A DNA stretch of 64,000 nt from Roseiflexus sp. RS-1 (GTDB taxonomy: Bacteria; Chloroflexota; Chloroflexia; Chloroflexales; Roseiflexaceae), in assembly GCF_000016665.1 (NCBI RefSeq), contig NC_009523.1:1798001-1862000 (forward strand). Direction: 5' to 3'. A program made the position numbers and the translations under genes. This document shows positions 9,036-16,040 of this stretch, in pieces (position 1 is the stretch's first letter; every line of letters starts with the position of its first letter). Below the pieces are notes generated by a model that was given only the letters and a program-made list of their open reading frames with translations, did not search any database and was not told the DNA's origin.

Positions 9036-9125
9036 GTGCGCTTGTACCCCTCATTCCCCCTGCCCCCTTCTCCCACAAGGGGAGAAGGGGGAGTCTGGGC
9101 GTCCTGAAGACCCTGGGGGCAGGCA
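9036..9125 (-). repeat. Dispersed palindromic repeat (copy 1, reverse orientation)
   Basis: Holds a hairpin at 9063-9091 (CCCCCTTCTCCC, short loop, complementary arm) with flanks GACGCCCAGACT and TACAAGCGCACGGGAAT when read on the minus strand. The same core and flanks recur at 14358-14420 and around the IS at 14491-15950. Lies between the CDF and qor 3' ends, so it may also act as a bidirectional terminator. Confidence 0.85.
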
Positions 9126-14012: not shown

Positions 14013-14306
14013 GTGAAGGGGCGAGGCGAGAGGGGCGCGAGGCAAGAGGTACGAGGGGATGAGGCGCGAGGAGTTGCAGGTTGAACGTTGCACGTTGAAC
14101 GTGGGACGACAACGTGGAGGGGCGCAGCGCTGCTGCGCCTGGACTGGCAGCAGGGGCCATGGCAGTGGCGCGAGGCGCGAGGAGTTGCAGGTTGAACGTT
14201 GCACGTTGAACGTGGGACGACAACGTGGAGGGGCGCAGCGCGGGTGCGCCTGTGCCAGCAGCGAGAGCAACGGCGGGGGCGAGGCGCGAGGCGAGGGGGG
14301 AGAGGA
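14013..14306. repeat. Heptad-periodic tract with a 111-bp-spaced duplicated block
   Basis: The sequence splits into 7-nt units (GTGAAGG, GGCGAGG, CGAGAGG, then GAACGTT, GCACGTT, GAACGTG). A 72-bp block starting GAGGCGCGAGGAGTTGCAGG occurs at 14061-14132 and again at 14172-14243. The GAACGTTGCACGTTGAACGTGG core also appears near 22377 and, reversed, near 32549, so this is a dispersed family. Preceding bases 13898-14012 show nothing else recognisable. Confidence 0.85.
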
Positions 14307-14510
14307 GATGCTCACAGGGGTAGATTTTTGGCAAGCCCCTGCGTGCTATCGCCTGTTTCAGGCATCAGGACGCCCAAACTCCCCCTTCTCCCCTTGTGGG
14401 AGAAGGGGGTTGGGGGGATGCTCACAGGGGTAGATTTTTGGCAAGCCCCTGCGTGCTATCGCCTGTTTCAGGCATCAGGACGCCCAAACTCCCCCTTCTC
14501 CCCGTGTGGG
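14307..14510 (+). repeat. 110-bp tandem repeat carrying the palindromic element (copies 2 and 3)
   Basis: A unit starting GATGCTCACAGGGGTAG runs 14307-14416 and restarts at 14417. Copy 2 holds the intact hairpin at 14381-14409; copy 3 is interrupted at its hairpin by the insertion sequence and resumes at 15905. In each copy the hairpin arm is CCCCCTTCTCCC. Confidence 0.88.
14500..14510. repeat. Left target-site duplication of the IS4-like element
   Basis: CCCCGTGTGGG, identical to 15894-15904. Joining the flanks through one copy rebuilds the same palindrome that is uninterrupted at 14381-14409. Confidence 0.9.
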
Positions 14511-15893
14511 TTGAAAGGGGGGGGATTCGCAGGCAGATTGTCAACCGTTTCCGTTCCACCGAACGCACGGGCCGATCCGTCGGTATCATGATCATGGAAG
14601 GATCGCGAGACACGGAGGATGGTATGTCCCGCACGTCCACAGAACGGTTGCTGCAGCAGCAGATCCAGACCCTCTTCCCGCGCTTGTCGCGTCACCGGCG
14701 CCGCGCCCTGGCCCGCTGGGTCTTGGGCGCCTTATTGGCGGGGAGCGCCAATCGTCCCGCGCTGGCGCCGGCGCTCGCCACTGCCGGGATCGCCCGCGCC
14801 GCCACCCTGGCGGACGCCTGGGATGCCTGGATCGCCGCCCCGGCCCATCTCATAAACACCGCCGACCCACCCGCAGCGGGTGCGCCACCGGTGGTCAGTC
14901 CGCTGGCGTGCGGCGCCGACCTGCTCCGCTGGATTCGCGCGCACTGGACCGGCGGACCGCTCGTGCTTGGGCTGGATGCCTCCCATCGGCGCGATGACGT
15001 CGTTCTGCTGCGCATGAGCGTCCTCTATCGGGGCGCCGCCCTGCCGGTCGCCTGGGTGATCGTCCCGGCGAACCAACCGGGTGCGTGGGAACCGCACTGG
15101 GAGCGGATGCTGCGCTGGGCCCGCAGCGCGCTGCCGCGCGACCAGGAGGTCCTCGTGCTGGCGGATCAGGGGTTGTGGAGCCCCCGGCTGTGGCACGCCA
15201 TCCGGTCGCAGCAGTTCCATCCCATCATGCGGGTGCGCACCACGTCGACCTTCGCGCCGACCGGTCAGGCGCGCCAGTCGGTGCTGCGCCTGGCGCCCGG
15301 ACCGGGGCATGGATGGGTGGGCGTGGGGGTCGCCTTCACGCACGCACCCAAGCGGATTGCGGGCACGCTGGCGGTGGCGTGGGGCGCCGACCATGCGGAA
15401 CCGTGGGTGCTGCTGACCGATCTGCCGCCCGCGCAGGTGGATGCCGCGTGGTATGCCCTGCGCAGTTGGGATGAGGCGGGCTTCCGCCAAAGTACGTCGA
15501 TGGGCTGGGACTGGCAACGCGGTCAGGTGACGGACTCGGATGCAGTCGCCTGGCAGTATCTGGTAGTGGCGACGGTCACGCTGTGGACGGTGGCCGTCGG
15601 CACGCGGATCGAAGATGCAGAACAGCAGGGGGTTCCGCCCGGTCGCCTGAAGCGGGCGCCGCCGACGACCGGCGCGCCGCCGCGCCGTCGCTGGAGCGGC
15701 ACGGCGCAGCGGGTGATCAGCCTGCTCCGGCGGGGGGCAGGTCGGCGCCTGCGCTGGTTGCTGGCGCAAGGGCGTTGTTGGGTCCGCTTGTGGTTGCGCC
15801 CGGAGCCCTTGCCCAAAATAGGTGACAGCGTAACCATGCATATCTATGACCCGTCCCAATGCCTGAAATCGCCCTAAATCCCCCCCCTTTCAA
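14511..15893 (+). mobile_element. Complete IS4-like insertion sequence, 1383 bp
   Basis: Ends are perfect 17-bp inverted repeats, TTGAAAGGGGGGGGATT at 14511-14527 and its complement at 15877-15893. It is flanked by an 11-bp direct repeat (14500-14510, 15894-15904), within the size range of the IS4 family. One transposase fills most of it, and its stop codon lies at the inner edge of the right terminal repeat. The target is the loop of the dispersed palindrome. Intact ends, duplication and reading frame suggest a recent insertion. Confidence 0.93.
14624..15877 (+). CDS. IS4-family DDE transposase
   Basis: 417 aa from ATG 14624, chosen for GGAGG 5 nt upstream; in-frame ATGs at 14587 and 14593 are alternatives. 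The DDE triad is visible: D118 in LGLDAS, D181 in LVLADQGLW, and E284 in YALRSWDEAGFR, with the Y-x2-R-x3-E part of the IS4 YREK signature (the Lys position is not Lys here). It cuts and joins the element ends. The frame is intact, with a very Arg/Trp-rich C-terminus after residue about 340. Confidence 0.9.
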   Translation: MSRTSTERLLQQQIQTLFPRLSRHRRRALARWVLGALLAGSANRPALAPALATAGIARAATLADAWDAWIAAPAHLINTADPPAAGAPPVVSPLACGADLLRWIRAHWTGGPLVLGLDASHRRDDVVLLRMSVLYRGAALPVAWVIVPANQPGAWEPHWERMLRWARSALPRDQEVLVLADQGLWSPRLWHAIRSQQFHPIMRVRTTSTFAPTGQARQSVLRLAPGPGHGWVGVGVAFTHAPKRIAGTLAVAWGADHAEPWVLLTDLPPAQVDAAWYALRSWDEAGFRQSTSMGWDWQRGQVTDSDAVAWQYLVVATVTLWTVAVGTRIEDAEQQGVPPGRLKRAPPTTGAPPRRRWSGTAQRVISLLRRGAGRRLRWLLAQGRCWVRLWLRPEPLPKIGDSVTMHIYDPSQCLKSP

Positions 15894-16040
15894 CCCCGTG
15901 TGGGAGAAGGGGGTTGGGGGGATGAGGGGCACAAGCGCACGGGAATACAGAACATTGCTCATCTCTCCCAAAAACTCTGCACTTGAGAGCGCGAGGCGCG
16001 AGGGGCACGAGGGGCGAGGCGCGAGGGGTAAGGAATTGTA
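15894..16040 (+). repeat. Rest of palindromic repeat copy 3, then a purine heptad tract
   Basis: 15894-15950 carries the right target duplication and the repeat tail (GAGAAGGGGGTTGG then ATGAGGGGCACAAGCGCACGG), matching the flank of copy 1 at 9036 in reverse. From about 15989 the sequence falls into 7-nt units such as GCGAGGC, GCGAGGG, GCACGAG, GGGCGAG. Confidence 0.8.

Follow-up and report, generated by a model that had tools for sequence, protein, structure and literature searches.

An IS4-like insertion sequence (IS) in the genome of Roseiflexus sp. RS-1 exercises real target-site choice: all eight of its full copies, together with the left end of a degraded ninth, have entered the palindrome CTTCT-CCCC(G/T)TGTGGG-AGAAG at one and the same base pair. 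This palindrome forms the centre of a dispersed MITE, itself an older mobile element. We consider it highly probable that the element moves by cut-and-paste transposition of the IS4/Tn5 type with a strong choice of target, its transposase capturing, as a symmetric dimer, the symmetric CCC-N5-GGG target in the MITE core. It provides a clear, fully replicated example of target choice by an IS4-type transposase.

The insertion sequence and the palindrome it splits

The window (the whole stretch of DNA analysed, 64,000 nucleotides) carries one copy of the IS, situated between genes within a tandem MITE array, in which an additional left half (14311-14420) stands ahead of the copy split by the IS (14421-15989). 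The features of the locus are as follows.

9063..9091, reverse strand: second intact palindrome, within another repeat copy
14311..14420, forward strand: MITE left half, a tandem neighbour copy with an intact T-type palindrome
14381..14409, forward strand: intact palindrome CCCCCTTCTCCCCTTGTGGGAGAAGGGGG
14421..15989, forward strand: host MITE copy interrupted by the IS, with ends CTCACAGGGGTAGATTTTTGG / CCAAAAACTCTGCACTTGAGAG (175 bp after subtraction of the IS and one copy of the target-site duplication)
14491..14499, forward strand: outer left arm of the split palindrome, CCCCCTTCT
14500..14510, forward strand: left target-site duplication (TSD), CCCCGTGTGGG
14511..15893, forward strand: IS4-like insertion sequence, 1,383 bp, intact, one of eight full-length copies (plus a degraded one) in the genome
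14511..14527, forward strand: left terminal inverted repeat (TIR), TTGAAAGGGGGGGGATT
14624..15877, forward strand: transposase gene, 417 aa, with a D117-D180-E283 triad, a Y(2)R(3)E(6)T motif and a predicted Tn5-like fold
15877..15893, reverse strand: right TIR, AATCCCCCCCCTTTCAA, 17 bp, perfect
15894..15904, forward strand: right TSD, CCCCGTGTGGG
15905..15913, forward strand: outer right arm of the split palindrome, AGAAGGGGG

A preliminary description of this DNA had reported an 11-bp duplication at the centre of a hairpin, with arms continuing as CTTCT and AGAAG, and undisturbed palindromes at 14381-14409 and 9063-9091; all of this was confirmed, the duplication lying at 14500-14510 and 15894-15904. 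It had also placed the IS exactly in the loop. The insertion is indeed centred on the dyad, but the cuts fall in the stem: the palindrome CCCCCTTCTCCC-N5-GGGAGAAGGGGG has 12-bp arms, the strands are cut 3 bp inside them, and the TSD accordingly consists of CCC, the 5-nt loop and GGG. Because the outer flanking bases of the two TSD copies are unlike (T precedes the left copy and A follows the right), the duplication is exactly 11 bp. Both intact palindromes have T at the position where the window TSD has G. The palindrome 21-mer, for which zero chance matches are expected in the window, gives a hairpin with a 12-bp stem (-14.2 kcal/mol, z = -4.9). Directly upstream of the MITE array lies a tandem repeat (14061-14291, period 111 bp, 2.1 copies). 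An inverted similarity of 17 nt (88%) links the right subterminus of the IS (15852-15868) to the MITE left half (14466-14482); it could be chance or shared ancestry and was left out of the argument.

The transposase is encoded by a single ORF, as in other IS4 elements, and its catalytic residues are spaced D117-62-D180-102-E283 (numbering, here and for the motif, leaves out the start Met and covers 416 aa), within the D(60-110)D(100-150)E pattern of the family (PMC2266710). The motif residues are Y276, R279 and E283, and all 14 homologues compared keep the DDE and YRE residues unchanged. At the last position of the Y(2)R(3)E(6)K signature, eight of nine copies, including that of the window, have T; the copy at L002 and many homologues have K. 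The 11-bp TSD likewise lies in the IS4 range of about one helical turn (8-13 bp). Profile searches matched NCBIfam NF033591 transpos_IS4_2 (E 5.5e-17, 61.9 bits, under the cut-off of 152) and Pfam DDE_Tnp_1 (E 0.011, also under cut-off). A PDB search by sequence returned no match, but for the AlphaFold2 model (pLDDT 70.8, pTM 0.77) the best five PDB matches found by Foldseek were all Tn5 transposase (E 1.9e-7 to 1.4e-6). No relative of the IS was found in the viral contigs searched. Since the ends TTGAAAGGGG fit none of the subgroup signatures (IS231, ISH8, IS4Sa, IS4, IS10, IS50 and ISPepr1; PMC2266710 Table 1), the element is best called an IS4-family member outside the named subgroups.

Genome-wide copies and the MITE that hosts them

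A search of the whole genome (one contig of 5,801,598 bp) recovered eight full or nearly full IS copies and one degraded copy, whose right side is rearranged, and no IS copy outside the palindrome. The IS occurs in both orientations within the palindrome, and the related Roseiflexus genome G009 has one copy at the same point. The preliminary description had weighed repeated insertion into one palindrome against copies in unrelated targets; with all copies and their targets listed genome-wide, every copy proved to occupy one and the same point of this palindrome, and none of the full copies in the genome has an unrelated target. The six-base motif alone does not account for this pattern: the genome holds 116 CTCCC-N5-GGGAG sites against about 1,900 CCC-N5-GGG sites expected (extrapolated from 21 in the 64 kb window), which puts the chance of eight out of eight copies in palindromes at about 3e-10.

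The palindrome, present in about 100 copies in the genome, owes its abundance to being the core of a MITE of about 176 bp. Reading of 55 empty copies showed a unit that begins CTCACAGGGGTAGATTTTTTGG, finishes CCAAAAACTCTACACTTGAGAG and forms an imperfect inverted repeat; the palindrome lies at its centre, and the unit has TIRs and duplications of about 11 bp of its own. Among the 17 copies with both ends locatable, ten are flanked by 10-12-bp duplications with at most one mismatch, for example GGGCTTGCTGC and GCGTGCCGTCG; small shifts were allowed in this count, so that any one case carries less weight than the ten together. At L007 the MITE retains its own TSD, CCCGCAATACC, outside the inserted IS. 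The repeat is thus short, apparently non-coding and present in many copies, with TIRs and TSDs, as a MITE should be. The preliminary description had likened the target to REP hairpins; a repeated palindrome is indeed targeted, but a REP, a short palindromic repeat with neither TIRs nor its own TSD, was ruled out by these features of the unit. An Rfam search gave no family.

Ends of the same class as those of the MITE, with 10-11-bp duplications, occur on IS4-like cousins in other Chloroflexota, such as L142 in G381 (ends CTCACAAGGGTAGGTA, 11-bp TSD) and a cousin in G299 (ends CTCAAAGGGGTAGGTA). No intact parent element was found for the MITE in this genome; judged from the resemblance of the ends, the MITE was probably mobilised by a cousin IS4-like transposase. 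The case adds that the target of an IS4-type transposase can be the core of a MITE whose ends belong to a related class, and such nested, safe landing sites would let the IS amplify without hitting genes. At L007 (about 1490-2894) the palindrome core is reversed relative to the MITE halves, whereas 54 of the 55 empty copies share one direction; this suggests that the TSD-IS-TSD block has been inverted between the palindrome arms.

Target recognition in the element, its relatives and known systems

Relatives of the IS are found in a range of targets. One from Chloroploca Khr17 (68% aa identity) is flanked by an 11-bp TSD, CCCAGGGCGGG, that conforms to CCC-N5-GGG and has little hairpin potential, with only CCCC/GGGG pairing. 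A cousin in G008 (27%) has the TSD CCTGACAGGGG within a 23-bp palindrome, off centre by one base, and a G378 relative (35%) has one copy in the axis of a long palindrome (L151) and another near an axis (L140). At least one further IS4-like lineage uses the Roseiflexus MITE palindrome itself: at the G009 site orthologous to L005, a G008-type IS with ends TTTAAGGGCGGACAGA (L084, 1-1215; L085, from 2308) sits in the same MITE palindrome between imperfect 11-bp flanks, CCCACGAGGAG / CCCATAAGGGG. In the present genome, L089/L091 shows one end of a further element, again at this palindrome point. A solo end of the second lineage, TTTAGGGGTGGACAGA, was observed in a neighbouring palindrome, 3 bases before the usual point (L004 2951-3015, L164 4762). 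Cousins in G372, G299, G381 and G333 occupy non-palindromic sites, and an Oscillochloris copy (L095) is non-canonical, with a palindrome next to it and no clean 11-bp TSD; palindrome choice is thus recurrent but not universal in the clade. The Oscillochloris relative stands between two palindrome pieces (L095 3822-3853 and 5240-5262) with inverted loops TCACG / CGTGA.

In the mechanism that we propose as the simplest, a transposase dimer with the two-fold symmetry of the Tn5 synaptic complex would bind a two-fold symmetric duplex target, namely CCC-N5-GGG plus arms, the middle of the 29-bp palindrome carried by Roseiflexus MITEs. The two IS ends would be joined 5' of the CCC, one on each strand, at a distance of 11 bp (one helical turn); repair of the gaps would then yield the 11-bp duplication. 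The MITEs would serve as non-coding landing pads whose ends are of the same class as those of related IS4-like elements. The targeting and its symmetry are observed directly; we infer recognition of duplex DNA from the 11-bp duplication and the Chloroploca site. The outer arms would have a role as well.

The preliminary description favoured targeting of the hairpin; in such a reading, the transposase would recognise an extruded stem-loop (cruciform) or a lagging-strand hairpin instead of linear sequence. The stability of the 12-bp hairpin stands, the cut points are symmetric around the loop, and relatives in strong palindromes of other sequence (G008; G378 at L151, and nearby at L140) would fit such a reading. 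Against it, an 11-bp duplication is what an ordinary staggered cut of duplex DNA leaves, the 68%-identical Chloroploca relative used CCC-N5-GGG without long arms, and the off-centre cuts in G008 and at G378 L140 misfit strict recognition of a loop. We therefore regard hairpin targeting as rather unlikely. An 11-bp symmetric target with about 100 natural sites and a Tn5-like enzyme should suit an experimental comparison of duplex symmetry with an extruded hairpin.

That an IS4-family element can have every one of its copies inserted at the axis of a dispersed palindrome has been known since 2006 from ISRm22 of Sinorhizobium meliloti, which is a direct precedent: nine of its nine genomic copies lie in REPs at the axis of palindromy (PMC1525189, PMC2266710), and three of the nine have imperfect direct repeats, ascribed to recombination (PMC1525189). 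The present IS shares with ISRm22 its family, the position of all copies at the axis of a repeated palindrome and the imperfection of some direct repeats; the likeness is one of description, and ISRm22 has REP targets and 6-bp repeats whereas the present IS has a MITE centre and 11-bp repeats. IS231A has the 11-bp target consensus GGG-N5-CCC, equal in spacing to CCC-N5-GGG with the half-sites in reverse order; its ends (CAT...) and host range differ from those of the present IS. IS231A and the IS231 subgroup show 10-12-bp repeats and target preference (PMC2266710). Tn5/IS50 prefers targets that are palindromic and in which the TSD ends are G-C pairs (PMC1525189) and resembles the present IS in fold, as judged by the Foldseek matches of the predicted model, but differs in its 9-bp TSD, relaxed specificity and ends. 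ISPsy8, ISPa11 and ISPpu9/10, REP-targeting elements of other families (PMC1525189), also have all copies in one dispersed palindrome, but their duplications are short (2-3 bp) or absent. No paper was found on Roseiflexus IS or MITE palindromes. What is new here is the nature of the targeted palindrome, a MITE core, and its use by several IS4-like lineages.

Independence of the insertions and asymmetry of their duplications

Every IS copy is nested in the same repeat, and the copies are mosaic in sequence, which shows that recombination among them happens; both observations could be accommodated by a single insertion of the IS into a MITE, the composite unit then being copied by a MITE transposase or by recombination. 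The divergences speak against this account. IS copies differ by 2.9% on average and the surrounding MITE halves by 12.3%, with a correlation of r = 0.08, several IS-bearing MITEs are nearer to empty MITEs than to one another, and the IS is found in both orientations. The uncorrelated divergences indicate separate insertions instead of copies of one nested unit; on this comparison of sequences, spread of one MITE-plus-IS unit as a block is ruled out as the main process, and hitch-hiking of this kind is very unlikely. It is extremely unlikely that the IS inserts widely and is retained only in non-coding MITEs, since selection, for all that the MITEs are apparently non-coding repeats and the window copy is intergenic, accounts neither for the identical base pair and 11-bp register in every copy nor for other intergenic DNA being without IS copies.

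At the loci surveyed (L001-L007, L010, L059 and L083), the two TSDs are mismatched at one base in four copies of this genome; read in IS orientation, the left TSD then always has T and the right one G. The same is probably true of the G009 copy, whose pair of ends may or may not come from one copy. Counting the eight own copies and one G009 end, the right TSD is G-type in 9/9, while the left has five T and four G, following the T:G mix of the genome whichever way the palindrome faces (65 T vs 32 G among empty palindromes). Depending on the base rate (0.33 to 0.41), the probability of nine out of nine G on the right lies between 5e-5 and 3e-4; that of the T-left/G-right direction within the discordant copies alone is 0.06.

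Recombination, the explanation given for ISRm22 and in keeping with the mosaic copies here, could account for hybrid TSDs but not for their direction. The right TSD might conceivably not be a faithful duplicate, being rewritten during insertion or repair or derived from a palindrome attacked as a heteroduplex or hairpin with differing strands; this we hold to be distinctly unlikely. If true, such rewriting would be an unusual step for IS4-type transposition. Carry-over of the donor right flank was rejected as the cause, since the core is oriented alike in the left and right copies of every insertion and this orientation forms no clade in the IS tree. A single discordant lineage was rejected too, the T/G copies being scattered over that tree. 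Empty orthologous sites, which would date the G/T change, were sought for L005 and L007; the L005 orthologue in G009 is occupied by the other IS lineage, and the L007 orthologue is interrupted by a contig end. Beside the L005 insertion (1061-1412) lies another dispersed repeat family, up to about 350 bp long, with many copies both in this genome and in G009.
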